Assembly: GCA_021014945.1 (NCBI GenBank)
Contig: MU266405.1
Location: forward strand, 1 to 64,000
DNA length: 64,000 bases
Direction: 5' to 3'
From: Leucogyrophana mollusca
Taxonomy: Eukaryota > Basidiomycota > Agaricomycetes > Boletales
Positions 1,707 through 36,510 of this stretch are shown here, piece after piece. Position numbers and translations under genes: made by a program. The notes under the pieces were generated by a model. The model saw only the letters and a program-made list of their open reading frames with translations, was not told the DNA's origin and ran no database searches. Every line of letters begins with the position of its first letter. The first letter of the stretch is position 1.

Positions 1707-2837
1707 CTACCCACCCACCCCATACACCTCCCGCGCCACACGCTCCCACTCCTCCGCGTCCAGCGCATACGCGCGCGCGTACTCCGCCTCGAGGTCGTGC
1801 AGGCGCTTCCCGACGAGGACGAGGCTGTGGAGGGGCGCGCCGAAGGCGGCGGGGGGCGCGGCGGCGAGGGCGGAGAGCGGGCCGGCGGTGATGCGTTGGC
1901 CGGTGGTGGGGGCGGAGGTGGAAGTGGAAGTGGATGTAGAGGTAGAGGACGGGGAGGCAGATATGGAGGTGGAGGTGGAGGCAGGGGAGGAAGTGGAAGT
2001 GGGCACGTCGACGCCGCCGACGCGGGAGAGGGCGATGGCGAGGGTGGAGTGCGGGGAGAGGACGCCCTCCTGGCGGATAGCCTCGATCTCGAGAAGCTGG
2101 GAGACGGCCTGGGGGATGGACATGTAGCGCGGGGGCTCGTAGATCTTGCGTCCTCTGTGTAGGGTGAATACTCGTAGCTCCTAGATGAACGGGGGCGGCG
2201 ACGCACCTGGCGAGATTCTCCTCGCTCTGCTCCTTGACCTTGATATCGAGGAGGACGAGGGTGTGCAGTCCGAGCTGTGCGTTCTCCTTGATGCGGTCGT
2301 AGAATGAGTCGGGCTTCCATGAGTCTGTGAAGAATACGAGGGAGACGGTCTGGCCGAAGTTGTAGAGCTGGAGGCCGCAGGCGCCGACGGCGTTCAGGAT
2401 CGAGGCGTTGTGGATCACCTGCGTCGGGATATCCAGGGCACGGGCACGGAGGAGGATGTCGATGTGCGTCGTCGCCCTAAGCGTGATTGAGTAGGCGGTG
2501 AGTGGGCGGGAGGGAAGGGACGTACCCGAATGGATCGCCGACGACGAGGAGGGCGACGTTTTCGGTGTGTGCGTCTCTGAGGATGTCGTCGCTCTGCGTC
2601 TCGACCATGTCCCGGTCCGCGACGATCAGCTCCTTCCCGTAGAACGCTTCGAGGCGCTCTTTGTGGACCATCAGGATGCTCGTGTACGCCTCGAGGTACA
2701 CCCGAGACGACGATTTCACCGCCTACATCCCATCGATCGTCAGCTCAGCGCCACGCCCGTCGACGGGAGCGCACCTCGAGACCGCGGACGGTGATGTCCT
2801 TTTCATCGCACAGCCCAAGCCCGATAACGTACAACAT
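1707..2837 (-). CDS. DPH5: Diphthine methyl ester synthase
   Basis: S-adenosylmethionine-dependent methyltransferase that builds diphthine on the histidine of elongation factor 2. Four exons (2837-2775, 2722-2526, 2476-2207, 2154-1707) give 325 aa. The N-terminus [21 protein letters not shown] is the family's opening strand and helix. It is followed by [12 protein letters not shown], the GDPFG loop, a [22 protein letters not shown] block and [27 protein letters not shown]. These are all diagnostic. A Ser/Thr-rich low-complexity insertion (about 1890-1990) lies near the C-terminus and makes the protein about 30 aa longer than average. The start codon is fixed by the universally conserved N-terminus. 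Divergent from ERV2, with start codons 42 bp apart. Confidence 0.96.
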
Positions 2838-2879
2838 CGTGGTCACAGTCGGAGCCACCCGCCTTGCACCCGCACCCCG
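2838..2879. promoter_or_regulatory. Compact bidirectional 5' region of DPH5 and ERV2
   Basis: The DPH5 ATG (2837, minus) and the ERV2 ATG (2880, plus) leave 42 bp between them. At least one 5' UTR and core promoter must therefore overlap the other gene's transcript. No TATA box is visible in the interval. Confidence 0.6.
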
Positions 2880-4607
2880 ATGATCTCCCGCTTCGCCCGC
2901 TCCTTCCTCGCAATAGTCCTCGCTCTCGTACGCACACATTCGCTATCACAGCATATATAAGCGCACTGAATAATATTAATCAAATCACGCAGTTCCTCGT
3001 CGCCACCCTCGCCGTCCTCCACCCCCCGTCCCGCGCCTACATCGAGCCGCTCACAGGCGACTTCTTTGGCGAGGGCGGCGTAGAACAGGACCTCCAGCAC
3101 GTCCCACCATCCAGCCATGGCGGCGTCATCATGGCGAAGCTCGGGAATGAGACTGCAAAGTACGTTCGTTGATGTTCCATGTGCGCCGGTGCTTGCTCAC
3201 GCGGGACGGGACAGGGCAGAGCTGGGGCGCGCAACGTGGAAGCTGCTGTGAGATCCTTTTTCTTTCTGATTCGGAGAGGCAATCTATTGATGTGGACGTG
3301 GATAGACACACTATGACACTCCGCTTTCCCGAGGTACGTGCTCCCTCGTATCATGTACTACTACTGCTCTCCTCACTGGCCCTCCTCCCTACCTTCACAC
3401 ACAAACACACACCGCCCAGCACCCAACCCAAGACGAGCGCACCGCCCTCTCCTCCTACTTCCACCTCACCTCCCGCCTCTATCCCTGCGGAGAATGCGCC
3501 GCCGAGTTCCAGGAGCTGCTTCGTCGCTTCCCGCCCCAGGTGCGTGCGCTTTCTTTGCGTTTGCGTTGCGCCTTTCTTGCGTCTGCGTTGCGCTTTTTTT
3601 GCGTCTGTGTTACGTTGGGGTCCGGTATATGCGTCGTGTTTGGTTGGGGTCAGGTGGGGTGGGGTGTATGCGTGGTGCGGGTTTGCTTGGTTGCTGGGGT
3701 GATGCGCTGTGTTGGGCGTTGGGGTGTGCGCTAGGACGGGGATGGGGTCTTGCCTGCTTCGAGAGGCATGCAGAGTTTCGACCCTTCGGAAACACAGAGC
3801 TTCCGTCCCTTCAGAGGCACGCAGGGCTTCTTCGCTGCTCAGTGCACGCAGGGCTCCCCCTGCTGCTCGATGCATGCAGCCCCCCTCCCCCCTGCTACTC
3901 GATACACGCAGAGCCCTCGTCCCTTTGAGATCCATCCATCCATCCATCCATCCACACACGCATATATACATACTCGCACACACGCACGCACGGTTTCTCT
4001 ACTCAACACCCCGCTGACACTCCGCCCGCAGACATCGTCGCGGCTAGCGGCTAGCCTGTGGTGCGTCTCCCTCTTTCCCGCTCTGTTTGCTTTCTTATCG
4101 TGCTTCCCTTTCCCTCCCTCGTGCTCCCTTCCCCCTCCTCCTTCCTACTCCCTTTCTCTTATAATCCGCCACCACCCCTCCCCCTACCACGCCACGCCAC
4201 CACGCCACGCCACCCTCCACCCCATCCCCCCTCACCCCACCCCACGCCACCTCAACGCCCACACCCACACCCACAGGCTCTGCACCCTCCACAACGAGGT
4301 CAACGCCCGTCTCTCCAAGCCCGCCTTCGACTGCGCGCACCTCGACGCGACGTACGACTGTGGGTGTGGCGAGGGCGAGGCGGGGTCGCCGAATGCAGGT
4401 TTGGGGTCGCTGAATGCAGGTGAGAAGGCGCGGTCGTCGGACTCGGACTCGTTGGCTGCAGGTGAGCGAACACGGCTCAGACCCGCCCGTGCGGTGGCTT
4501 ATGGTTTATCGTCCACCACAGGAGCAGGAGTGGACGCGATGGACCTCGAGTGGGACCCGACGAGGGATGGCGTGACGGGCGTGGGGCTTATCAAGGGCGG
4601 GCGGTAG
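2880..4607 (+). CDS. ERV2: ER FAD-linked sulfhydryl oxidase, Erv2-like
   Basis: Passes oxidising equivalents from oxygen to protein disulfide isomerase in the ER lumen. Exons 2880-2927, 2993-3159, 3215-3247, 3306-3333, 3420-3539, 4032-4060 and 4277-4607 give 251 aa. Residues 1-30 form a signal anchor (ARSFLAIVLAL joined to FLVATLAVLH across intron 1). The Erv fold follows: AELGRATWKLLHTMTLRFPE, the active site YPCGEC (C115, C118), the FAD-binding LHNEVNARL and the CAHLDATYDCGC tail. The signal anchor and the C-terminal CGC point to Erv2 rather than mitochondrial Erv1. A further 60-nt in-frame stretch (4462-4521) has GTGAGC...CACAG borders and may be spliced or retained. Introns 5 (492 nt) and 6 (216 nt) are long for this window. 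Confidence 0.92.
3755..3955. repeat. Degenerate tandem repeat and (CCAT)n inside ERV2 intron 5
   Basis: Units of about 35 bp built on GGCATGCAG / GGCACGCAGGGCTTC / TGCACGCAGGGCTCC / ACACGCAGAGCC recur from about 3755 to 3915. A run of CCAT units follows at about 3932-3951 and then CA-rich sequence. Confidence 0.6.
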
Positions 4608-5544
4608 CCTGGCGCGTCGGGATTGGGCTGGGATTATATTCAGTTGCGGAGTAGCGGGCGCTGGGGAGTGCGTGTATGTATACCCTATTTATCTTTGCTA
4701 TCCATCTATTGCTGTGGGTCGGTTGGGTTGGTGTGTCGCGTGCCGGCGCCGGGGTAGAGGGCACACTCACGAGGGGTTTTCCTTTTCGTGCATGTTCTTG
4801 ATTAGTGGCTCAAGGAAGCCTATGCGACGCAGCGCCCCCTGGTCTCGGAATCTTGCCACCCTGCAGCTGATAAGTCGTCGAGGGAGTCAAAAGCCTGCAG
4901 CCACCCAGAACGTCAACAGCCACCTCTGCCTCTTGCCCTCACGTTGAAGTTCATATGGCAGGGCACAACTTGAAGTAGACTCGATGATACATCGTTGGCT
5001 ACGCCTCACTCCACGTCATCTCTGGACCCCCGAGCTTCGAGCTTCGGGTTCGATGTCGACCCACGCACGTAGTGGTTATTACTTATACAACCAACTCAAG
5101 TTCTAACCGCATCTTGCCTGGAAGCTTGAGCACCTCGGGGTATCAGCTCAGTATGTGTCGTTTTGCCATCGCGGGCGAACACGATTCGGAATTATGGAAG
5201 TGGCCGTTCACATGTGAGCCCTCAGCCAATGCCCTCCTCGCACTGCGTTCCCTCGAGAGGAACAGCTGGTTGCTGAACGCGCTACCCAAAATCGACGAGT
5301 CTACCACCTTCAAGCCGCTAGCGCTCTTAGACTTCAGGCTTTCCTCGTCATGGTCGAGCTCGTCACACGCCTGCGGACTTTCGAGACATTGATGGATATC
5401 ATGGTGGCGGAGAGAACATCGATGATTGTCGGGTGTGGACGGAGGGCTGCTCTACGGGGACGTTCTGATCTCGGATGAACACCTCTAGCTTTGCTGCTAT
5501 CGTGTGGAACCAGAACAAGAAGAACAAAGGGAGGACAAGGGTAG
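4608..5544. other. Intergenic region with a dispersed-repeat segment
   Basis: About 4670-4765 resembles 18785-18910 (shared TATGTATACCCTAT-like start, GGGTCGGTTG core and GGGGTAGAGGGCACACT-like end). The rest shows no ATG-initiated coding sequence with support. Confidence 0.45.
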
Positions 5545-5630
5545 ATATCATAGTGATACGGAACGGGAGGTAAAGTCGGAGCAAGATCCACCACAACTTC
5601 TCCGCCGCTGACTATTACTAAGCCGTCGGG

Positions 5631-5640
5631 CTATATATCC
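5631..5640 (+). promoter_or_regulatory. TATA box of paralogue A
   Basis: GGGCTATATATC(C/T)CTCC is conserved between the two duplicated promoters (the other copy is at 8171-8180), each 80-95 bp before the ATG. Confidence 0.6.
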
Positions 5641-5716
5641 CTCCTTTTTCTGAAGTCCGAGTCTCGAAGTGCCACTGACGGTGTTCCACTGTCTACGTGT
5701 TGTCAAAACATCCACC

Positions 5717-6346
5717 ATGGCAAACCTCGGGAACGTGACCAAAAAGCTTCGCTTTCTTCCCCAAGACCCCAACAAGGGCTACACATCGGAGGTATGGGTG
5801 CTTTGTCCACCAGCCCGAGCACTCACAATACAGTACCCTCGCCTCCAGGACCGCGAAATCAGCTTCAGCCCACGCATGCAGCCAATGGCCCGGCTTCCCC
5901 GCTCCCTCGTCCCCACATCCAAATCCCCACTCCAGCCGCCGCGCTTCCACTACGGCTGGCTCATCAACGTCGACCACGTATACGAGTGGGCCAAAGCGCA
6001 CGGCCACGTGCGTTTCTACGAGGAGATGGAGGACGACGTAGAGTCGAGCAAGGAGCTCACCCTGTTCCGGAGCGTCTACGACGTCTGTAAATCCCTGGGC
6101 GTCCCGTTCCCGCGCGGGCTGTCCGTCGTCCCGGTGCAGACCCCGGATGGGCACCCGTATCTTGTCTCGATAACGACGAACTATATCCAGGAGATGCCTC
6201 CCTCGGACGTGCGCGACGCCCTTCGGGATTTCTACACTGGAGGCCGCGCGGGGCCCGGGCAGTGGTGGTTGGATGTGTACCATTGGGTATGGAAACGACA
6301 GGCCGTTCGTCGACCGAAGAAAAAGAAGTCGGTGGCAAAGCCGTAG
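5717..6346 (+). CDS. Orphan 195-aa protein, tandem paralogue A
   Basis: Not recognised. Exons 5717-5791 and 5834-6346 with a 42-nt intron. The intron also reads open, but the paralogue's intron is 41 nt and would shift frame, so splicing is well supported. The protein begins MANLGNVTKKLRFLPQDP, has a proline-rich stretch, then HYGWLINVDHVYEWAKAHGH, an acidic EEMEDDVESSKEL helix, a strand-rich middle (VVPVQTPDGHPYLVSITTNY), a WWLDVYHWVWKRQ segment and a basic tail (KKKKSVAKP). No signal peptide or membrane segment. A TATA box (CTATATATCC, 5631-5640) lies about 80 bp upstream. Function unknown; probably a lineage-restricted family. Confidence 0.8.
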   Translation: MANLGNVTKKLRFLPQDPNKGYTSEVWVLCPPARALTIQYPRLQDREISFSPRMQPMARLPRSLVPTSKSPLQPPRFHYGWLINVDHVYEWAKAHGHVRFYEEMEDDVESSKELTLFRSVYDVCKSLGVPFPRGLSVVPVQTPDGHPYLVSITTNYIQEMPPSDVRDALRDFYTGGRAGPGQWWLDVYHWVWKRQAVRRPKKKKSVAKP

Positions 6347-6420
6347 TTGCGGGAGGTTGTGGCTCGGATCATTATAGGAGCTATACTCAGGCCGCAGGCC
6401 GCCCACCACCCCGTCACTTG

Positions 6421-7192
6421 TATGTATAGTCGCAGGCCGAAATCCTGAACAAGTCATCTGGTGGTTCCGATACATCGTCAGTAGCACCTAGGAGTGGGCG
6501 CCCTTTTGTCCTCACGCTCGCGGTCAACGACTCGCCATTCGTGAATAGGTATGAACTGGAAGCGTCTTCGCTCACCTCGTAGGCTCCGTGGTACCAGCAG
6601 CGAGCATGCTGATCGTCGAGCCGGGACCAGCTGCTCGGACACCCACTCTGCATCTGAATGCGACCGGCATTCCCTTCAGCTGCGCTAGCACAAAGTGATA
6701 GCTCCTTCCTTCCTTGGAAAACACCCCAAGAGTACTGCAGCGTCCACCCTTTTGTCCTGGTAGTCTCCGATTCACCGTACTGGGACGTGAGTTATGGAGG
6801 CCTTCATGATGAGCCGAAAACTTGATGGAACACAAATTATGAAAGCTAGCTACCATCGCGCGCCGAAGGCCTCTCCGAATTTTGTTTTCCTCAAGGGAAG
6901 CAGCCGGGACAGTGCGAGGATGCGGTACCAAAATTCGACAAGTCTACTGTCTGCCACCCCAAAGTCATTAGCGTTCTCCACACTTCCGTCACCGTGGCCA
7001 TCGCAGGCAGCTGCGTTCTCGTCACAAGTCCGGGACTGTGTCGGCTTCATCACTAGTGCAAGTGCGCAGTACGGAAGGACCCTTTTCTCGCAAGGGCCTT
7101 AAAAGCGAGGGAGTTTGAGGCCAATCCCAAGTATCAACTCGAGTACCACTCATCTCAGTACAATTACCAAGCCCCTTTACTCGAATCTTAGC
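6421..7192. other. Intergenic region between the duplicates, left part
   Basis: No gene supported. A TATA-like TTAAAAGC at about 7099 may serve the small secreted peptide gene that starts at 7193. Confidence 0.5.
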
Positions 7193-7414
7193 ATGCGCTT
7201 CATCACCACTGCCGCTCTCGTTGCCCTGCTTGGTGTCCTTGCTGCCGACGTCGAGGCCTGCAGGCAAGGCCGCTACCCCATCCTGAATAAATGTGTGCGT
7301 GTTCCAACCTGCTACCTCCGCTGTATTTGGTGGCTGAGGTCTGTTGTTCTCTGTGACTAGTACTGCCCGTCAGGCAGGGATGTTGAGGTTGGGACTTGTG
7401 ACTTGGGAGGCTGA
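7193..7414 (+). CDS. Small secreted cysteine-rich peptide
   Basis: Not recognised as a family. Exons 7193-7294 and 7361-7414 (intron 66 nt, GTGCGT...GACTAG) give 51 aa. Residues 1-22 are a clear signal peptide (MRFITTAALVALLGVLAADVEA). The mature peptide CRQGRYPILNKCYCPSGRDV plus nine residues has four cysteines and ends CDLGG. Without splicing the frame runs into intron sequence and stops at 7360. Such peptides in fungi are candidate effectors or extracellular signals, but nothing here proves a role. It sits alone between two duplicated orphan genes and is not itself duplicated. Confidence 0.55.
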
Positions 7415-8099
7415 TGCGTGAACTCACGCGGAAAGGTCTGTTCGTCGTCTCTTTCCTTCGTGGGCGAATGAGACTTATCGTGATGGTAGCACTGCGGTCG
7501 GGGTTGCGGAAATCGGCGGCGTGGGCGCGATATTCGACTGAACTGTATGGGCTGGTGCAGGAGTTGTGAGACCGGGGTCAGCGTCGGGTGATTTCCGCAA
7601 CGGCTTTACTTTCACCGAATGTCCTCTGAAATCAGTTTTCTCCGAATCAATTCTATGTTGTACACCTTGATGATCAGTGCGTTTGGCGGTTTCTCGCCTG
7701 CACTCTATATGTGCTGCCTGGGGCCGACCGCCTCACGCTGCGGGAAGTCACATAAATCGTTTGTGATCAATGCCCAGAGCACTTTTAATCAGTGGCGGAA
7801 GTAAGTAGTGAAAATCAATGTCGAAACAGGCTTCCGAGCTTTGATCCCAAATAACGCCACGACACGACGATCCATTTGACCTGTGCGGGCAGCACTGCGA
7901 AATCGGCACGGCGTGTGGTTTGTTTCGCCGGCTCGGATGGCGATGCAGTGGAACTGTGGAAGAGGTGGCCGAACAAAGGTAGATTAGTGATACGGAATAG
8001 CTGGGTTCCGGGTAAAACCCTGGAGTTTTGAACAGAGGGCATTTTATACCGGTTTTAAAACATGTATTTAACTGTACAAAACTCGAGGCCCTCTGACGG
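7415..8099. other. Intergenic region between the duplicates, right part
   Basis: No supported gene. The longer antisense frames here have no homology that I recognise and no promoter evidence. Confidence 0.5.
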
Positions 8100-8970
8100 T
8101 CATATCGGAACGGGAGGTAAAGTCGGGGCAAGAATGACCACAACTCCACCGCAGCTGACTAAGCCGCCGGGCTATATATCTCTCCTTTTTCTGAGGTCCG
8201 AGTCTCGAAAGGTCTCGAAGTGCCACTAACGGTGTTCTGCTGTCGACGTGTTGTCAAAACATTCAATGGCAAACGTTGGGAATGTGACGAAAAAGCTTCG
8301 TTTTCTTCCCCAAGACCCTAACAAGGGCTACACATCGGAGGTATGGGTGCTTTGTCCACTAGCCCGAGCACTCACATACAGTACTCTCGCCTTCAGGACC
8401 GCGAAATCAGCTTCAGCCCACGCATGCAGCCAATGGCCCGGCTTCCACGCTCCCTTGTTCCCTCATCCAAATCTCCAATCCGGCCGCCTCGCTTCCACTA
8501 CGGCTGGATCATAAACGTAGACCACGTATATGAGTGGGCCAAAGCGCATGGTTACGTGCATACCTACGAGGAGATGGAGGACGATGTTGAGTCGAGCAAG
8601 GAGCTCACCCTGTTCCGGAGCGTCGATGATATCTGTGAATCTCTGGGCGTTCCGGTCCCGCGTGGGGTTTCCATCGTCCCGGTGCAGACCCCGAATGGGC
8701 ACCCGTATCTTGTCTCGATAACGACGAACTATATCCAGGAGCTGCCTCCCTCGGACGTGCGCGACGCCCTTCGGGATTTCTACACTGGAGGCTGCGCAGA
8801 GCCCGGGCAGTGGTGGTTGGATATGTACCATTGGGTATGGAAACCACAGGTCGTTCGTCGACCGAAGAAAAAGAAGTCGGTGGCAAAGCCGTAGTTGCGG
8901 AAAGTTGTAGGTTTGGATCATTATAGGAGCAATGCCCAAATCGTAGGCCGCTCCCCACCTCGTCACTTGT
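8100..8970 (+). repeat. Segmental tandem duplication, copy B
   Basis: Second copy of the 5545-6420 unit, in the same orientation. An extra GGTCTCGAA in the 5' UTR and a one-base-shorter intron distinguish it. Confidence 0.85.
8266..8894 (+). CDS. Orphan 195-aa protein, tandem paralogue B
   Basis: Exons 8266-8340 and 8382-8894 with a 41-nt intron (GTATGG...ATACAG). Without splicing the frame is lost, which confirms the exon boundary in both copies. The protein is the same length as paralogue A, and most differences are conservative (for example FYEEM to TYEEM and VYDVCKS to VDDICES). Coding sequence is better conserved than flanks, suggesting both copies are or recently were constrained. No catalytic motif, signal peptide or membrane segment seen. 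Function unknown. Confidence 0.8.
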
Positions 8971-22010: not shown

Positions 22011-22920
22011 CCCAGCCCTGATCGCCCTCCATCTCCAGCAGCCTCTCCCACTCGCCCTCGTCCATGCCATAGCTCTCCTTGGCATCAGGAAAGCTCCCAT
22101 CACTAACAGCACCAACAAACCCCCTCACGCCCCTCGCAACCTCCGCGCCGACGTCCGCAAAGCGGCGGACGAACTTCGCCTTGTGCCCCTCCCACGTGCC
22201 CATGACGTCGTCCCAGACGAGGACCTGGCCGCTCGTGCCGCTGCCGGCGCCGATGCCGATGGTGGGCACGCTGAGGCGGTGGGTGATGTAGGTCGCGAGG
22301 GGCGCGGGGACGGCCTCGAGGACGACGGCGAAGGCGCCCGCGTCCTGGAGCGCGAGGGCGGCGTGGAGAATGGGGCGGGCGGTCGCGGCGGTGCGGCCCT
22401 GCACGCGGTAGCCCGATAGGGCGGTGTGGCGCTGCGGGAGCAGCCCGACATGGGCCATGACAGGGATGCCGACGGCCGTGAGGGCACGTACAGTATCCGC
22501 GACCTCCGCGCCGCCCTCGAGCTTCACAGCCTCGGCAGCGCCCTCGCGGACGATGCGCACGGCGGCACGGACGGCGTCGCGGGCGCCGGTGTAGTACGTG
22601 CCGAAGGGCATGTCGGCGACGAGGAGGGGGGAGGTGGTGCCGCGTGCGACGGCGCGGGCGTGGTGGATGAGCTGGTCGAGGGTGAGGGCGGTGGTGGCGG
22701 GGAGGCCGAGGGCGACTTGGGCGAGGGAGTCGCCGACGAGGGTGATGTCGACGGGGTGCGCGGAGCAGGCGCGGGCGGTGGGGTAGTCGTAGGCGGTGAG
22801 CACGGAGATGGGGGTGCGCTGGCGGTGGAGGGACTGGATTGTGGTTTTCTTGCGCGGCGGGGCCTGCGGGCGGACGCTCATGGCGCGGGCGAGGACGAGG
22901 GGTATGCGTGGGGGGGCCAT
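21958..22920 (-). CDS. panB: 3-methyl-2-oxobutanoate hydroxymethyltransferase (intact copy)
   Basis: Ketopantoate hydroxymethyltransferase (yeast ECM31): adds a hydroxymethyl group from methylene-tetrahydrofolate to 2-ketoisovalerate, the first committed step to pantothenate and CoA. Single exon, 320 aa from the ATG at 22920. An in-frame stretch continues upstream but has no ATG. Landmarks in order: KKTTIQSL, ISVLTAYDYPTA, the metal loop LVGDSLAQVALG, ADMPFGTYY, VKLEGG, VMAHVGLLPQ, AFAVVLEAVP with the catalytic Glu, and TIGIGAGSGTSGQVLVWDD. The N-terminus is rich in Arg and Ala, consistent with mitochondrial import. This is the only complete panB of three panB-derived loci in the window. Its 5' flank is duplicated before the gene at 36600. 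Confidence 0.96.
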   Translation of the reverse strand: MAPPRIPLVLARAMSVRPQAPPRKKTTIQSLHRQRTPISVLTAYDYPTARACSAHPVDITLVGDSLAQVALGLPATTALTLDQLIHHARAVARGTTSPLLVADMPFGTYYTGARDAVRAAVRIVREGAAEAVKLEGGAEVADTVRALTAVGIPVMAHVGLLPQRHTALSGYRVQGRTAATARPILHAALALQDAGAFAVVLEAVPAPLATYITHRLSVPTIGIGAGSGTSGQVLVWDDVMGTWEGHKAKFVRRFADVGAEVARGVRGFVGAVSDGSFPDAKESYGMDEGEWERLLEMEGDQGWVPPAERKIPSGEGSEES

Positions 22921-24075: not shown

Positions 24076-24220
24076 GCGGCCTCGAGGACGACGCCGAACG
24101 CGCCCGCGGCCTTGGCGGTGAGGACGGAGATGGAGGTGCGCAGGCGGTGGAGGGAGTGGTTTGTGGTTTTCTTGCGGGGCGGGGCCTGTGGGCGGAGGGT
24201 CTTGGCGTGGGTCGACATTA
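24030..24220 (-). pseudogene. panB relic with two internal deletions
   Basis: Minus-strand reading gives the panB N-terminal piece (LRPQAPPRKKTT, SLHR, ISVLTA). It then jumps straight to AGAFGVVLEA, about residue 186 of the intact protein, and then to the 3' end region shared with 21960-22010. More than two thirds of the coding sequence is gone. Cannot encode an enzyme. Confidence 0.8.
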
Positions 24221-25910: not shown

Positions 25911-26050
25911 ATGGCCCTCCTCACCACCACGGCCCTCCTGCCCCGCCTGGCCCCCCCTCGCGCGCCCCTCCTCGCGCGCGCCATGAGCGTCCGCCCCGCG
26001 GCCCCGCTGGCCAAGAAAACCACGATCCAGTCCCTCCGGCGGCAGCTCAC
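25911..26050 (+). pseudogene. panB: Split panB copy, 5' fragment
   Basis: The ATG at 25911 encodes an N-terminus parallel to the intact gene (LARAMSVRP, KKTTIQSLRRQLT), then runs directly into the left terminal inverted repeat of the 9.55-kb transposon. Its upstream TTCAAATATCCC...ATGGTCC also matches the intact gene's flank. The matching 3' fragment is at 35606-36198. Confidence 0.88.
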
Positions 26051-26195
26051 TATGACGGTCAAACTGCACTTTAATTAATTTTAGCGCGCGCATTTTTGTA
26101 CTGAAATTTGCGCGCGAACATCATTTCATTCGATAAAAAGTATCTTAGTTTAACACTAATGGACCCAAAGCATAGTGAGGGGTGGTGGATGTGAA
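26051..26195 (+). repeat. Left terminal inverted repeat of the large element
   Basis: TATGACGGTC to GGTGGATGTGAAT. Compared with the right end it lacks about 35 bp of GCGCGC-rich sequence after TTTTAGCGCGCGCAT. Confidence 0.88.
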
Positions 26196-26774
26196 TGCAC
26201 CAGCATATCATCAATGGTCTTATAAGTAACGTTTAACAAGCCAAATATATTACAGTAGCCCAAGAGGAGGGCAAAAGTAGAATGCCGAACACGAAGGTCA
26301 AGGCTTTGCCATAGCTAACCCAGTGTCCGGAGTCCTCCCGAGAACAGCCGAGCACTTTGAGGGCAGGATTTCGAGAGTTTGTTCAGTCGGGCACTAAATA
26401 CTATACTTTAGGGCACGAAAATAAAGAGGACAACGAGGGCTTCCGGATGGTGCCCATATGTCCAGGACTTTGTGTTATGTGTACGAAACTGTGGGCGAAA
26501 GTAGTGGAGCACCGTGGAGGCAATAGTGCTAAGTATCACATGACCAGCGCGACCGTGGCGCGACGCGCTCACTTCTGTTTACCAAGATCTATCTCTCCCA
26601 TGTCGCACACTTGTCGTGCCATCCCTGCGCCGCCCGCTCAGTCAAGCCTCTGCTAGCGTCGATCATGAAGTCCGCTAATAACCCCCAAATTTGCCCCGCC
26701 ATTCTAAAGGGCTCACCTTCCGAGCCATGAAATTGCCCTGCCGCTGGTTGTTGCTCGTCAGCGCGGTTCCCGTG
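26196..26774. other. Transposon 5' subterminal and leader region
   Basis: AT-rich compared with the host. No ORF supported before the ATG at 26775. Confidence 0.5.
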
Positions 26775-29700
26775 ATGAGCGACCAATGGAGCTCACAGAC
26801 CACCAAGGTGGATTACTGCAGGTCAAATTCTGCTACTGGCATAGCTACCCCCTTGTTTCCAGGTCTGCTTGACCACTCTACCGAGCAGCCCCCCAGCACT
26901 TCTTCCAACGCTGGTTGCACAGAGGTGAGTCGAAGTCATTTTAATCTGATAGTTAGCAAGTTCTGATAGATGCTTCCTGTGTTTCTACTAGACCTCTTGT
27001 GCAGACCAGACACCCGGAAACGCTTCCAGCCACCCACCGGAAACGTTCTCGTCGTACCGGTCTGAACATTCACAGGTCGCTCCCAATGTACACAGCTACT
27101 CCACGATACCACTCGATAGTGAAACGTCTACGATGCCGTTTGCCCCGTACGCCCCCACGGACGCTTTTATCGACAGTACATCATCTCAGCCTCTCCCCCA
27201 ACCACCAATTCCAGTATCTTCGTACTCGTATGGATTCGGTGCTTCCACGTCTTCGGGAATGACATTCGGATTACCCCCAAATCCCCCTTCCCTGCCTTTC
27301 GACATTGTTTTGCACGCTCTCCCCTCGACAACACCGACTACACCATCCTATGTATGCCCGTCACCATCGGCAGGCTTACAGCAGGACTTTCAGCGTTCTG
27401 ATTTGACACCGGCAACATCCTTTTGGCTTACCGCTCACGCTGGCCAGTTGCAGGATCAAACCACAACACGACAACATTCATCAATGACATTCTTAAACTC
27501 TGTGTCCGTGGATAATGTGTCAACACCGTTTGATTCTTCGACGCTGCAATGGGATTCGAATGGCAGAGGCGGTCGGCTGCGGGTCTGCTGTCCTAAATGT
27601 GGCATCTGGATAGGTACAGGGTCTACGAAACAGAGCAATGTTGGACCGTTACAGGTCCACATGAATGGGTCGAAATGTCGAGAGGTTCCTCGACATGAGA
27701 TGAACCTTGCGAAGGAAGTGCGTAAGGCATGCTTTCTTCCCCAAGACAAGCCCGTGCACCGATGTGCTCCGACTTCACATCAGCGTGTGTTGTCCTCGAC
27801 CTCATCTTCGACCTTGGGGACTCCCTCATACACCGGCAGCCCAGAACCTACCCCACCCCCTTTGTGGGAGAGATATCTCACCCCACCGTTGTCTCAGCAA
27901 TCAGATCCTCATTCCCAGTCGTCGGCACCTCCGCAACCCGTTATATCGGCGGCTTGTCCAGGTCTTCACGTGCAATGGCCAACAGCGCATGTGTGGAGAG
28001 ACTATCCCTTCCACCGGCACGGAGATCCTGCCCTCTCTCCTGGATACAGGCTTTACAGCATCAACTCGACTGGCAGTCTTCACACACGTGCCGAAAGCTG
28101 CAGTTCACTTGCGCTCTCTGACGGCACGCCGTGTGATGAGTGTCGACAGATAGCTATCACCGTTCAGCGCCTCGCATTACTGGCTGAACATGCGGAATCG
28201 AATACAAACCATCGGTTTCTCAGCTACTCTCAGATAAGCCAACGCCTCTGTGATACTGTGGCAACCCTCGGGCGATGGAAATTAAAGGTGCGTAGGTCCT
28301 AACATTCTACGAGTTTGTAGAGACCGACTATGTCTTTTACAGGCTGTGTCAGTTGGACGCAAGTGTGCTTCTGTGCTATCGAAGCTGGATGAAAGCAAGC
28401 AGCTACTAATGATGATTGCCTCCGGACACATACCTCGAGTTCACCGACTGCTCGGGCAGGCTATCAAGGATGGTGCTGGTATCACGGCGATTGTTGCAAA
28501 ACTCGAAGACTCTTTGACACGCACGCACCAAGCGCGACGCAGTTATCAAGCACGTGGATACGATGAAGAGGACTTTAACATTTCGCTGTTGGTGCTCCGA
28601 CTTGGCGGACGCAAGCTCCTATATGCGCTCAGCCGATACATCGCAATTCCCTCTATTCGAGCACTTCAGCGTGCGCGTATTTCAACACGAATCATGCCTA
28701 GTTTCGGCACCCCCAAGCTAGATGATATTCTTTTCAACATTCGGTCAGTCCTGTTGCCACGCGCCGCTCACCTCGACGAGGCAAGCCCTTTTCATAGTGG
28801 AATGTCTATCATGTGGGACGAAGTCAATGAAGAAGACGTTGCGTGCTACTTCCCTCATGCCGATTGTGTTGGAGGACTCTGTCGAGAGCATTCGGACAGC
28901 GTTAATCTGCGGCTGTCCACATTTGACAGTGCTGTTGCGATTGCCCGAGGCCTCGCGGAGGGCACTGTACACTACGGTAAAGAGGCCTCGGTCATTGCTG
29001 TGGGTTCATTTGGTAAAGCCCTGCGAGGAGCATTCCCTATTGTGGTGTCACCTACGTGCAAACGAGAGACACCGTCTGAATCTGCGGAGCTACTCACCAA
29101 AGTCATCTCCGGGTGGCAAGAAGCTGGGGAGAAATACTTCGGACCTATCTGGTCTTTTGCTTCCGATGGTGATGCAGGTCGTCGTGCAATGGTCTATCAG
29201 CTGTTTATGAAACATGACATCGACGTGAAACACAAACTGTACAAGTACCTCGGCGGCCTTCGCGGTCTCAATCTCTGTGTCGGGGACCACGACATTACCG
29301 GTGATTTTGATTGGAAACACGAAATCAAACGTAAGTGCAACATTATGAAGGGTTCTTGTTCAATCTAACGTGCTCTGTGATATAGGCATTGCTCGGCTCC
29401 TCCGCACGCAAGAAGGTCTGGTGATCGGAAAGACAATCATCAACCATGATACTCTTCTTCGCCATCTCCTCCGTGATAAATCTCGCACCACCTCTTCCGT
29501 GGACCTTCTCTTGCGCCCGGATGACTCCCAAGACGTGCCACGAGCAATAGATCTTATCGATGCAGTTGGTTCTCTATCAACACTTGCTGCTGACGAGTGC
29601 AACCCTACCGAGCTACAGGAGCTCCAGGCTATCTACGTTATCGGAGACATGTTCACGGCATTCATGCACCCTTTCATTCAGCCCGCATGGTCATTGTCCG

Positions 29701-32161
29701 AGCAGATCACGGCGCTGAGCAAGTATGCTCACATGGCCTGTGCGCTGTTTCGCGAGTTTCGGGTCAACTTCATGCCTTATCAACTTTACGGCGACACACA
29801 AACTACGGTCAAAAACATCCTTTTCTGTGTCGCAAAACAACAGGAGATGGACGGTGACAAACCCTTCTATATATTCTGGGCGGGCGATGATCGGTTGGAA
29901 GTCCTATTTGGGCTGACTCGTATGCAAGGCGGTCACAACCCAAACTTTTCTTTCAAACAACTGCTGGACCGCCTTGCTGCTGCCGTCGACATTGGTGCTG
30001 TATTTGCACGACACCCTGAGCTAGATCAAGGCCATCGACGCATCAAGGTCACGCGAACAGAACATGCCGACCATCTCAATCCAGAATCTTGGCTTGGCGA
30101 TGTTACAGCGAACTCGGTCAATCTGACGGAGGCTTGGGTCAGAGGGCGTAATCAGGCTGAAGCAGCCCTCCATACGATAAACATTAATCCCAGATTTGTG
30201 GATCTCTTCGACGTCAATCGCACCACTGACATGCTGAAGCCCTTCGGAGACGGAAAATATCCTGGTGTTTCTACCGCATACGACAGATCGGCTGAGGTGG
30301 TGGCATCGCCTGGTGACTCCAGTACCCTGGTTGCCGGAAACGAGGATTCCTCGACAGCATCCGATGATCTTGTACTGATTGACACCGGATCGGACAAATT
30401 TGACCCAGAGGCAGACAACGGTGATTGTGAAGACCCTCCGCTGGTCGTAACAAACCCAGAACCTGTGCTTCATCCGGTAACTGTCACACCTCAGTACGAC
30501 GAGGAGGACGTAGTCGATAACCAAGATGTGACCATTGAAGATGCCTTGGACGAAGGAGAACGCCTTGCACTACCATCTGTAGTCGAGCACTCTTCGGCGT
30601 GGGTGGAACACAATGGGCAGAAGATCCACAAGGCATCTCTTTGCCGGCTGGTTGTGAATCCCGAATGGATACGCAAATCACACGAAAGATGTCTGCGTGT
30701 TCGAGGATGGACATCAGATCTAAAGCCGAGGAGCCTCAACTCGGACAGCATTGTTGATGGCAATTCCTTTGGCGTCGGTGAACTCTTTGCAACCTTGATT
30801 CGTTGCGGCGAAACAGTATCCCTCGCGGTTTTGAAGAGCATTGACATCGAAGAGAAAGGGAGTCGAGTTGGACGTGTCAACTGCCGGAGCTTACCGCACG
30901 CTGTTGCTGGCATCAAGATTGTTGGGCAGATTCTCGATATGCGCATGATCCCACTCCCTGCCATCTCGGGTGATTGCACTAGCACTGCGAGCGCTACTGA
31001 TGACTCGGTCAGCTGGCTATGGAACGGCTCGTTTGTCAAGCTCGACCTCGATCAACGAAACCCAGTACCGGTTGGCAAAGCCGCACGCAAGACGATTGCC
31101 GTCAAAGTTGGTAGCCCTATGTGCCTTCCTGTTAACCCTCGCATCGGCTCAGTCATGGAACGCTTATCCCCTTCTGAACACCCTGAACTGAACAATGCTG
31201 GGATAACATGGGAATTCCTCCAGTCCGAACTGGACGCTGTAATAGAAGGCTTGTGGGATGCAGTCAAGGTGTCGAAGTCACTAGGCCTCTTGCCACGATT
31301 CAAAGCCGACTCTACATTTCCGTATCGAGATAGAACAAAAGGTATGTTTATGTTGTTCAAGTCTACATAGCTAGAGCTTCATCTCACCACTCCGCATTTG
31401 ATAGATATCCCTGCTCTCGTGTCTGACGATGGATGCCGGGCACTCCAAAGCCAGAACGACCCCGCTGTTGGCAAATTTCGCTGCTTTCAGTGCCTGAAAC
31501 TGGTCGACTTGAAGAAAGCACGCTCGCACGTTGGAGAGCACATCTTGAGGTTTATGCGAGGTATCAGTGAAGAGCTGTCAGGTGATCCAGTAAGTACCCA
31601 AAGGTGTGCCGTATTGCAGAGATTCGACTGAGCTATTCTCAGATCCAAGGTCCCGAACCTTGTGGATTTTGTGGCCGCTCCGGTATCTCTTCGTGCAACG
31701 AGGTTTTCTTAACCAGCGGAAGTAGCCCTCAAGCTCAAACTAACTGTGCTTATGCTTCGAAATTCCACTACGCGCCGAGCTTAAAGTCGACATCTACATC
31801 TCCTTGCACAAATGTTCCAATCCGCTGCCAAATACCCGGATGCAGCGCCCTAGTCGATAAACGCCATACTGCCATTTGGAAGTATAACATGCCCGCCCAT
31901 ATTCTCGCAGCCCACAAGGACTACTCGCCGGATGGAATTCTTCCTGGAATGCCAATCCCTTCAGAGATGACAACGAGCATGCTGATCACATCGGAGGAAG
32001 AGCAGTGGCTGCGGATTCCGAAGGAGAATATCCCACCGAAGGTTACTCCCCCAGTATCCCTCGCCTCGGAACCAACATCGGCCAGTGTCACCCGCGCGAA
32101 ACGTTTGCGTGTTGACTCGCGAACTGTGCCCAAACCGCCGTCAAAGAGGAGCAAGAAGTAA
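26775..32161 (+). CDS. Giant transposase, RNase H-like (P/hAT-like layout)
   Basis: Exons 26775-26924, 26992-28287, 28343-29330, 29386-31341, 31405-31589 and 31643-32161 give 1,697 aa with no stop or frameshift. The N-terminal 480 residues are Pro/Ser-rich with a zinc-binding CCPKC (249-253)...HMNGSKC. The core has the spacing seen in P-element and hAT enzymes: Asp757 in FASDGDAGRRA, Asp803/805 in TGDFDWKHEIKR, a helical insertion (about 815-975) and Glu983 in DDRLEVLFGLTRMQGGHNPN. An acidic linker follows (about 1080-1180). The C-terminus has further zinc motifs (CFQC..HVGEH, EPCGFCG, CQIPGC...HILAAH). I recall similar unannotated proteins from other Agaricomycetes. Transposase function is inferred from this layout and from the flanking TIRs. 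Confidence 0.78.
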
Positions 32162-32536
32162 GTTACCATAGTATTGATTCTTTCACCGTACAAATTTACT
32201 CCATTGAAAATTTATTGCTCGTATATTTGACTCCTACATATACATACAATGTAATGATGCATGCATCGATGCCCCCTCATACTAGTACCTCGAGTTTCCC
32301 CTCTCGCCGTTGGCTCTGTCGTGTCTAACTCGTCGGCCCATGACTTCATATACTCCTTTTGTGGTTAGTCGTTACCTCTAGTGCTTTTTGGGAAGGCTCT
32401 GCCCCCAGTCCTCGGGGTCCATTTTTTTTCAGACCTTCGTGTCGAAAATTTTGTTTCTGCCCTCCTCTTGCAGTAGCCCTTGAAGACTTGAAGAAAATTT
32501 GCAAGTCCGAGCTTTGTAAGCTTTATACTCTGGCTA

Positions 32537-32559
32537 CAGTTGATTATCTCATAATGCAT
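32537..32559 (+). repeat. Pogo terminal inverted repeat, left
   Basis: CAGTTGATTATCTCATAATG and onward; differs from the right end at one base over 23. Confidence 0.85.
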
Positions 32560-32667
32560 AACCTGGGTTCCCGCCTCCAACCCATGCGTTATGAGAGTTA
32601 TGCAACATGGGATCATCACGTGCCGTGACTGTAATGTGACATCCTACTATAGTGTGACAGCGTAAAT

Positions 32668-34810
32668 CTAAGACGTCCAAAATGCACCCAGAGTTGCCTG
32701 CTTGGCACGCTTCGACTCTATCCGACGCAGGTGACCACGGAAACGGCGCAGTTGCTTGGATAGCTCCAGACCGACCTCCGAGTTTGCACCATCATAGTGA
32801 ATGCACACACTCTCGAGCTGCTGGCAAAGGTCAGTGATCTCAGCAACACTGAGCTCGGGTACCTCCTCCTCGCCATCATCAGAGTCCGAGTCGATCTCAA
32901 TCACCTCTCCACGGCTGATAGCAAGTTGACGACGTGCTTCCGCAGTAATTTCTGTGTCACCGCCCTCGAACCTGTATGGTGAATCACCGACCTCCCGCTC
33001 CTCAGGTGGGTCAACCATTTGTTTGATGGTTGGGAGATCTCCGAAAATACGGTTTCGTTTTTTGAGATCATGGACTGATTCCATGAGTTGTCCCTCCAGA
33101 GCGGTGACTTGTGGTGCGGGAGCTTTCGGTCGAGCCGGAATGCGTATGGTTAACTTTGTCTGCTGAGAGGACCGTGCCTCCAATTTCTCGACGGCCTCTA
33201 AGGCGGCGGTGGCATCACCTTCTGCGTTTAAAACGGCGTCGAGTGCCGGTTTCCAGTCATCATTGTTAAATGCGACACCAAGTAATTCTGCCAGGTGCAC
33301 TTCAGCTTGAGGATAGGTCATGCGAGTTGTTGCATAATCACGGATAATTTTCCAAGCCGCAGGATTCGCGTGAGTTGAGTCCATTGTAGAATTAGGTGTC
33401 GATAATTCAGATCTGTGACACGAAATCAGTAAGAAAATTGATACAACTTGAGTGGGACCTACGGTTGAATACCCGCATGATCCCAGCAATGCTTGATTGT
33501 CGAAGGTTCAACGCTATCCCAGGCATCTTTTGCCATCAACATCGCCTCCAAAAGATTGATCTTGTAGATATCCCGCTCTCCTGCCTCATCAAGATCAATG
33601 GCCCGTCTACAGAAACTGCGTCGATAATGTGCTTTCACACATCGGATAATGCCCGCATCGAGAGGCTGCACGAACGACGTTAAATTGGGCTCAAAGAACT
33701 CCAGGTCGATGTTGCGTGGCTCATACGAGGTGTTATGACCAGAGAAGTTGTCCACGAGAAGGCAGATGTGTCTGTTTTGCCTACGCATCATGATGTCGAG
33801 CATTTTGATGTATCTGTGCAGTGGTGAGCACTGAACTTACTCATCCGATTTAAGCACAACTCACTCTTCGAAAAATTCTGATGTCATCCATGCCTTCTTG
33901 TTATTGCGATAATAAAACCCTCGTGCTTGTGGAGTCACTTTCCTGAAGCAACGCGGGTTCTTGGATTTCCCAATGTAGAAAACAGGGAGCTTCTCGGTGC
34001 CGTCTGCATTGCATGCAAAGGCAAGTGTGATTCGGAATTTATCTTTCTTCTTTCCACTCATCTGGCGTGTTGCAAGACCACGGTCGGGAGGAGCACTACA
34101 AAATGAGGTCAGTCATCACCTGCGAATGGAGATGCAATCACTCACAATGCAAACAAACTCGTCTCATCAAAATTGAATCGATCTTTGGGACGGTACTTTG
34201 CCAGGACTTTCTGAACCCGTAGCCGCTCAATTTTGACAGCTTCGAGGTCCACAGAACCTGCCTCGCCGTGCCTCCGATATTCTTTGATCTTGTAAGCTTT
34301 GCAAAACGAAGCCACCCACCCCTCACTCCTAACCCTCTGCTCTTCGGGGACCTGGAGCTCATCCTCAAATCTCGTGCGTTTCTCACGAAGCATCGGCCCA
34401 TTAACAGTCTCACCCTTCTCCTCCATATGACGGACCCATAGGATCAGCGACTTTTCGACATCTGCCCTGGTGACGATGCGTGGTCTTTTTGCTGACAAAG
34501 CATTTGGGTTGTCATGCGCATGGGCTTCCACTTCGGCTCGCTGCTTGAGCTTTCGTGACAGCGTCGACTGCATGAATAGTAAAGCCCCCTCTGCCCGAGT
34601 TCTGAAGTGTTCCGCAATGTCGCCTTGTGAGACATCAGGGTGGCTGTCTATGTAAGCAAAGACAGTCAACCAGTCGTGAAATGTAAGATTTTCATGCCGC
34701 TTTGTCTGTTTTGGTTTCATTGATGTTGCTGGCATGTTCTTGGACTTATTCTTCGGCTTGCGGTTGTATGGTGCTGGCTTCGGTCGGGGTTTTCGAGCAA
34801 TGGCAGGCAT
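32668..34810 (-). CDS. Pogo-family transposase (Tc1/mariner, DD30D)
   Basis: Cut-and-paste transposase inserting at TA. Exons 34810-34146, 34095-33865, 33813-33463 and 33412-32668 give 663 aa without a break. Residues 40-180 hold two helix-turn-helix DNA-binding modules of CENP-B type (LTFHDWLTVFAYIDSHPDVS...; RSEGWVASFCKAYKIKEYRR). The DDE_1 core has Asp215 in FNFDETSLF, Asp320 in LLVDNFSGHN and Asp351 in QPLDAGIIRC, that is 30 residues between the second and third Asp, as in pogo and Fot1 relatives. The C-terminal 240 residues are helical and acidic (EIDSDSDDGEEE). The frame also opens with a GTG six bases before the chosen ATG. All catalytic residues are present, so the copy may be active. 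Confidence 0.92.
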
Positions 34811-35070
34811 TGTCACAGTGGAAGGGTGTAGAGCACTCAGCAGGAATTTTATGAACAGTTTTCTTATTGTTTCAACATCCCTGAAACTCTTCGAGGTACA
34901 GCAGTTCTAGATTTGTGAGTCGAGGTCTCAACCGTCTCCCTGAGTTGCACATCTGATAATGCATACTCGGCTCGATCTCCCTATGCATTATGCATTATGC
35001 AATATGCACGCCGCCCGACATGGTTCCTGCCCAAAACCCATGCAATACGAGATTTATGCATTATGAACTC

Positions 35071-35093
35071 ATGCATTATGAAATAATCAACTG
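35071..35093 (-). repeat. Pogo terminal inverted repeat, right
   Basis: Reverse complement starts CAGTTGATTATTTCATAATG and is followed outward by TA. Confidence 0.85.
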
Positions 35094-35284
35094 TACTTCC
35101 ATACCCACCACACTTACTGTCACTTACTGTCCCTCTTGTCTCACTCCAACATATCCACTAATTTACTATGTATTACTTTTGGGGCACTAGTTTTATTTTG
35201 TGAGGTATGGATAGTGTGTGTGTTGTGCGAAGATTTGGCTACTGATTGCTCTATATAGGTCATCTGTTACTATATACAATACGA

Positions 35285-35380
35285 GACATCTTAGCTGACT
35301 TGGTAAGTCGGCCTACAAGTTCGTTTGCCTGCGCCGAAGGTCCCACGTTCGATCCCTGCTGTGGACTAATTTTTTTTCTC
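35285..35380 (+). ncRNA. tRNA-like Pol III transcription module
   Basis: An A-box-like TAGCTGACTTGGTAAGTCGG at about 35292-35311, a B-box-like CACGTTCGATCCC at about 35343-35355 and a run of eight T at about 35370-35377 have the spacing of a tRNA gene or SINE head. A D-arm can pair, but I cannot fold a full cloverleaf with acceptor stem and anticodon. A tRNA pseudogene, SINE head or element-borne RNA are all possible. It lies inside the large element, between the pogo insert and the right TIR. Confidence 0.45.
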
Positions 35381-35414
35381 TGTCATAATGTCAAATTCAC
35401 TTTCTGATATCTCT

Positions 35415-35605
35415 GATATACTATTCACATCCACCATCACCCCTCACTACGCCTTGGGACCACTATTGTGAAATTAAGATACTTTTTATCGAATGAAATG
35501 ATGTTTGCGTGCAAATTTCAGTACAAATGTGCGCGCGAAATCGAATATGCGCGCTAAGTTAAATGCGCGCGCTAAAATTAATTAAAGTGCAGTTTGACCG
35601 TCATA
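35415..35605 (-). repeat. Right terminal inverted repeat of the large element
   Basis: Reverse complement of the left end, with an extra GCGCGC-rich block (35535-35565). Confidence 0.88.
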
Positions 35606-36198
35606 GGATCGTCCGCGAGGGCGGCGCGGAGGCTGTGAAGCTCGAGGGCGGCGCGGAGGTCGCGGGGGTTGTGAGCGCGCTCACGGCCGTCGGTATTCCC
35701 GTCATGGCGCACGTCGGGCTGACCCCGCAGCGGCACACCGCCTTGTCGGGCTACCGCGTGCAGGGCCGCACCGCCGCGACCGCCCGCCCGATCCTGCACG
35801 CCGCCCTCGCGCTCCAGGACGCGGGCGCCTTCGCCGTCGTCCTCGAGGCGGTCCCCACGCCCCTCGCGGCGTACATCACGCACCGCCTCAGCGTGCCCAC
35901 CATCGGCATCGGCGCGGGGCGCGGCACGCGCGGCCAGATTCTCGTCTGGGACGACGTGATGGGGACGTGGGACGGGCACAAGGCGAAGTTCGTGCGGCGC
36001 TTTGCGGACGTCGGCGCGGAGGTCGCGGGGGGCGTGGGGGCGTTCGTTGGGGCGGTTACGGATGGGAGCTTTCCGGATGCGAAGGAGAGCTATACTATGG
36101 GCGAGGGCGAGTTGGAGAAGCTGCTGGAGATGGAGGGCGATCAGGGATGGGTGATGCCTGCTGAGAAAAAGATACCGTCGGGCGAGGGCAGTGAGTAA
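35606..36198 (+). pseudogene. panB: Split panB copy, 3' fragment
   Basis: Resumes at the codons for IVREGGAEAVKLEGG (residue 123 of the intact protein) and runs open to a TAA at 36198. Residues equivalent to 37-122 are absent from both fragments, so transposon excision would not restore the gene. The remaining 197 codons are still in frame and close to the intact copy, so the event is recent. Confidence 0.9.
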
Positions 36199-36510
36199 AG
36201 CTGCCAGGCGAGGGCATTGTTATCAGGAGAGGAGCAGCTTCCTCAATGGGACTTGGACATTGGGCAGCTTAGACTGACTTTGTGAGATTTTTAATGGGAA
36301 TGTTTTTGTGGAAGAAAATCTGGAATATATTTCTGTGCATATAGACTTCAAATCTACAGGAGAAAATTCGAGGGTTACCTCGCAGATGCTGAGTGGTGAG
36401 CGAATGATGTTGAGCTAGTGCCTAAGTTCGGAATACGCAGCATTAAGTCCAAATCACAGTGGGTTTCGAGAGTCAGGGGCCTTCACGAAAACTGGAGAGC
36501 CCCACACCCT
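36199..36510. other. Intergenic region after the split panB
   Basis: No gene or repeat recognised. Confidence 0.5.

Follow-up and report, generated by a model that had tools for sequence, protein, structure and literature searches.

A probable P-superfamily transposon nested within an older, unrelated element in the mushroom Leucogyrophana mollusca

Among the closest described systems is the P element of Drosophila. Its transposase (PDB 6p5a and 6pe2) shares with the protein that we describe here a D/D/DxxH/DxxE signature and an RNase H fold, predicted in our case, with a helical insertion after beta5. Both elements have 8-bp target-site duplications (TSDs), a terminal repeat with an additional inner inverted motif, and internally deleted derivatives. 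The fly P element has 31-bp terminal inverted repeats (TIRs) and separate 11-bp internal repeats, as given in PMC7776569, which is unlike the arrangement in the mushroom element. THAP9 and the zebrafish P-like transposon Pdre2 also have the catalytic triad and the DxxH pattern (as described in PMC8230255). The 13-bp TIR and 8-bp TSD given for Pdre2 in PMC7776569 resemble the 13-bp outer part of the TIR in our element, but Pdre2 has 400-bp spacers, whereas the inner motif of the mushroom element lies less than 40 bp from the end. In fungi, 8-bp duplications accompany P-1_PSt and four families from Melampsora that were described by Cantu et al. 2011, who stated that the P superfamily had previously been unknown in any Dikarya (PMC3164196). 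As described there, these rust-fungus elements (in Repbase, P-1_PSt, P-1_MLP, P-2_MLP, P-N1_MLP, and P-N2_MLP) are similar to the mushroom family, as placed here, in being fungal P elements with 8-bp TSDs and in having both autonomous and non-autonomous forms; the comparison is by description. Searches of openly accessible full texts brought up no description of P elements from Agaricomycetes, for which a Repbase entry may nevertheless exist.

We analyzed a window of 64,000 nucleotides of Leucogyrophana mollusca (contig MU266405.1 of assembly GCA_021014945.1). From the sequence, an earlier note had proposed that positions 26051-35605 are a single 9.55-kb DNA transposon. Analysis of the window shows three elements in one nest (Table 1). 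We consider it highly probable that the large gene belongs to a cut-and-paste transposon of the P superfamily at 26261-32470 and encodes its transposase, and that this transposon inserted into an older, unrelated element. We are less certain of the assignment to P than of the element's boundaries.

Table 1. Features of the nested interval and of the large gene, in window coordinates
Feature	Position	Strand	Basis
Outer element, left arm TATGACGGTC	26051..26197	+	inverted repeat; outside the P-like element
Left TSD CAGTAGCC	26253..26260	.	flank comparison
P-like DNA transposon, 6,210 bp	26261..32470	+	inverted ends and perfect 8-bp TSD; boundary type also at C448, C437, C156
Left two-part TIR: CAAGAGGAGGGCA, spacer, ACACGAAGGTC	26261..26299	+	inverted-repeat search
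Exon 1, from the start codon that we chose	26727..26924	+	splicing of open frames
Exon 2	26992..28287	+	splicing of open frames
N-terminal C2HC zinc motif, aa 266-295	27589..27678	+	motif scan
Exon 3	28343..29330	+	splicing of open frames
Catalytic Asp 1, D657 (WDEV)	28817..28819	+	alignment column 209
Catalytic Asp 2, D773 (SDGD)	29165..29167	+	alignment column 323
DxxH motif, D821-H824 (P-type [C/D](2)H)	29309..29320	+	alignment; motif as given in PMC8230255
Exon 4	29386..31341	+	splicing of open frames
Catalytic Glu, E999, with Asp three residues earlier	29898..29900	+	alignment
Beta-rich domain past the part alignable to P transposase	30561..31340	+	weak BAH/Tudor/chromobarrel-like matches
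Exon 5	31405..31589	+	splicing of open frames
C2H2 zinc-finger motif, aa 1506-1525	31482..31541	+	motif scan
Exon 6, coding part including stop	31643..32161	+	splicing of open frames
Second C2H2-type motif, aa 1603-1632	31826..31915	+	motif scan
Right two-part TIR	32432..32470	-	inverted-repeat search
Right TSD CAGTAGCC	32471..32478	.	flank comparison
Pogo-type transposon within the outer element	32537..35093	-	HTH_Tnp_Tc5, DDE_1; TA both sides
Outer element, right arm	35423..35605	-	inverted-repeat search

The inner pair of ends almost certainly marks the true boundaries of the gene-bearing element. Its tips (CAAGAGGAGGGCAAAAG... and CAAGAGGAGGGCAGAAA...) match at 13 of 14 letters, and a second block common to both ends, ACACGAAGGTC, occupies positions 29-39. 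When we scanned the entire window for TIRs that match at 12 of 14 letters and have an exact 8-bp TSD beside them, we found four pairs; five shuffled windows gave none. The four pairs were 26261/32470, two within the palindromic outer arms, and one at 24088/35840. The 9.55-kb length was wrong: the inner ends, flanked by their TSD, give 6,210 bp.

The earlier note was right that the element carries an intact gene of six exons. We find that these join at GT-AG sites into an uninterrupted reading frame. Its product is 1,713 amino acids from the ATG that we chose; the previous length of 1,697 would fit an ATG 16 codons downstream. The N-terminal zinc motif and the C-terminal zinc-finger motifs that had been reported were both found. 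No Pfam family matched the window protein at E <= 1, which agrees with the reported lack of KDZ, Plavaka/CACTA, MULE, or pogo features, although very diverged members of these families could escape such a scan. (The pogo domains in the interval belong to the neighboring element, not to the large gene.) There was also no match to THAP at E <= 1, either in the window protein or in 28 relatives. The N-terminus, which is putatively DNA-binding, is not a THAP domain, and this distinguishes the mushroom protein from the Drosophila transposase as well as from THAP9 and Pdre2. It further differs from the Drosophila enzyme in its C2HC N-terminus, its beta-rich domain, its C-terminal zinc fingers, and its size (1,713 amino acids versus the 442-456 residues visible in the P structures).

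The proposed catalytic triad (D757, D803 or D805, and E983, in the shorter numbering) was partly correct. D757 is D773, which is the second Asp of the triad, and E983 is E999, but the first Asp is D657. D803 and D805 correspond to D819 and D821; D821 begins the DxxH motif and does not belong to the triad. The residues D, D, and E and the [C/D](2)H motif after beta5 occur in the alignment (84 of 91; 83 of 88) and in the window protein, and in 88 of 94 alignment rows an Asp precedes the Glu by three residues (D528 in the fly). In the predicted structure, which was modelled for a relative and not for the spliced window protein, a wholly helical insertion splits the RNase H fold between beta5 and alpha4, and the Drosophila P transposase has this arrangement too. 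The structural alignment with P transposase has 12-13% identity. Transib and RAG1 were the second-best structural matches, and Hermes was also among the matches.

The predicted fold, the signature residues of the superfamily, and the 8-bp target duplications lend strong support to the guess that the protein is P-like. The statement that it fits no fungal superfamily is probably wrong: P fits, and P elements are on record from rust fungi (PMC3164196, as cited above). Searches of PDB sequences with two profiles and two single proteins gave no relevant match at E <= 10, and did not hit the fly enzyme. The TNP-like matches, in two relatives, fell below the curated cut-offs, and each came from just one of the 28 relatives; there were none in the window protein. 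In P0035, no single stretch of the TNP-like match passes by itself, and in other relatives, unrelated families score as well or better (for instance SCRL, E = 2.2e-4).

It is unlikely, but deserves the most weight among the alternatives, that these proteins form a separate superfamily that has only its general architecture in common with P. The absence of a sequence match to P above the curated cut-offs, the low identity in the structural alignment, the missing THAP domain, and the additional C-terminal domains would all suit this explanation. A divergent hAT transposon is much less probable. In enzymes of the hAT superfamily, too, the RNase H fold contains a helical insertion, and their elements have 8-bp duplications and often CA ends. 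The element's 8-bp TSD and its CA...TG ends suit hAT, as does the appearance of Hermes among the structural matches. Because an 8-bp duplication and CA-type ends are common to hAT and P, the ends alone are not decisive. Neither the hATC region nor any other hAT model matched the window protein or the 28 relatives at E <= 1.

To identify other copies, we searched the organism's own genome (32.3 Mb in 545 contigs) with the protein core. There were four coding loci besides the window (C397, C448, C210, and C306), of which C210 and C306 are fragments. The copy in C448 extends from 2783 to 8389, with CAAGGGGCAACCAA ends that match at 14/14 letters and the TSD ATATGCCA. Only two of the five coding loci, the window and C448, have ends with a TSD; around C397, C210, and C306 we did not find convincing ends, only pairs matching at 10 of 14 letters. 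We also searched the genome for the pattern of the ends (backward controls gave no matches). This identified a 1,658-bp derivative at C437 10585-12242, with the TSD TCCTCCAA, which lacks the middle of the element and is otherwise 86-89% identical to the window element. This level of identity suggests past rather than very recent movement. A 678-bp MITE lies at C156 43957-44634, with the TSD GAATGTAC and with ends that are 72-78% like those of C448. The four insertions (window, C448, C437, and C156) have four different perfect 8-bp duplications. The earlier note had proposed looking for 8-bp duplications at other copies; they are found beside ends of the inner type, and not beside the outer repeats. 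Further loci with ends of this family are on C356, on C51 (described below), and on C399, where a non-coding locus bears one end only.

At C51 (L037) 84002-84519 is a 518-bp MITE that belongs to the P-like family. Its flanks form a 289-bp inverted repeat (99.65% identical), and the MITE is at the exact center of this repeat. We did not find a direct TSD; the flanks are inverted instead, and the sole direct repeat, a possible one of 3 bp (CTT), lies outside. Possible explanations are a product of aberrant transposition, a composite element of the fold-back type, and an artefact of the assembly. In C306 (L022), a 172-nt inverted repeat (78%; local positions 1780-1951 and 7153-7324) surrounds the fragment of the P-like core and reaches the end of the contig. 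A local alignment with the outer arm in the window showed no relation. In C437 (L036), open frames that by eye resemble a retroelement integrase and a chromodomain adjoin the deletion derivative, from local position 3728.

The outer TATGACGGTC repeats, which had been described as long TIRs (145-190 bp), are real. Their initial 45 nt are identical, and their 19-nt tip had no matches in 100 shuffles. They do not bound the gene-bearing element, however, and it is not through them that the protein is tied to a mobile element, but through its own ends. We saw no direct duplication beside the outer repeats, although the two letters at either extremity of this pair could conceal a TA. If the P-like and pogo elements are removed, keeping a single copy of each target duplication, then by coordinate arithmetic about 778 bp are left, so the outer element is small and has no visible gene. 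The pogo-type element, which was absent from the earlier description, has inverted ends CAGTTGATTAT and encodes HTH_Tnp_Tc5 (E = 4.1e-10) and DDE_1 (E = 3.1e-21) in the Pfam scan. The remaining explanation, that the interval is one 9.55-kb transposon with the TATGACGGTC repeats as its ends and the large gene as its transposase, has next to no probability and is already contradicted by the inner ends and the copies: although the gene does lie between these repeats, so does the pogo element, gene-proximal ends with a perfect TSD lie inside them, the copies in C437, C448, and C156 terminate in the inner type of repeat with the TSD directly adjoining, and elsewhere in the genome the outer arm is matched just once at E <= 0.001, by a single end (C103:3777-3821) on a contig that is not among the protein matches to the transposase core. 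Therefore, the two kinds of ends are separate. Whether homologs carry the outer TIR had been suggested as a check; for the copies whose ends can be located, the result is against the outer repeat. Nesting of three elements can mislead about which ends pair with which gene.

The ends of the outer element, with TATGGCGG in the C103 copy, bear only a loose resemblance to the TAYGG..CCRTA of IS3EU (as given in PMC12730594). The outer element also interrupts one of two copies of panB (ketopantoate hydroxymethyltransferase), which are in inverted orientation and 82-88% identical: one at 22084-22845 (minus strand) and the interrupted one at 25948-26050 and 35606-36202 (plus strand). The interrupted copy lacks 259 bp that the apparently intact copy has (22555-22813).

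To examine relatives in other genomes, we used a protein search (with residues 499-1130 as the query) and a profile search, both of which scored only the candidates that shared most words. Among the candidates scored, the protein search found 40 proteins and the profile search found 106, 10 of which were already known from the first; together they are P0001-P0136. All 40 matches from the protein search bear the names of what we take to be Agaricomycetes. The organism name is missing for 7 of the 106 profile matches, and we recognized no rust-fungus proteins among the named matches of either search. In both listings combined, Mycena olivaceomarginata has nine entries and Mycena leptocephala has six; many diverged copies in some species are expected of a transposon. 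The proteins of the family are listed as hypothetical in the databases, almost all without a Pfam domain. P0136, an unnamed, alanine-rich metagenome protein, is only about 23-26% identical to P0016, yet it keeps the DES, TDGD, DEHH, and E motifs as well as C-terminal zinc-like motifs. This suggests that the family may extend beyond Agaricomycetes; P0136 is perhaps from a non-fungal eukaryote.

The transposase would use its zinc motifs to bind the two-part ends and would pair both ends, and D657, D773, and E999 would then cut and join the DNA with the help of metal ions. Insertion with an 8-bp stagger, followed by repair, would yield the duplication. The helical insertion probably serves as the GTP-binding domain does in the P element, and might likewise use GTP. 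The transposon may be active at present.

Fungal P elements were already known; the mushroom family would be a broad, THAP-less, multi-domain branch. A bolder scenario, which we consider possible but doubtful, is that mushrooms hold an old and large branch of the P superfamily, so far unclassified, in which another zinc motif replaced THAP and a BAH/Tudor-like histone-reading domain was added after the catalytic core, so that chromatin marks would steer integration. The ends, target duplications, deletion derivative, and MITEs provide material that is directly testable. For long mushroom proteins that were known only as hypothetical, our analysis supplies a probable mechanism and the correct element boundaries. 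It would also extend P elements, whose best-known examples come from flies, to a broad range of Agaricomycetes.
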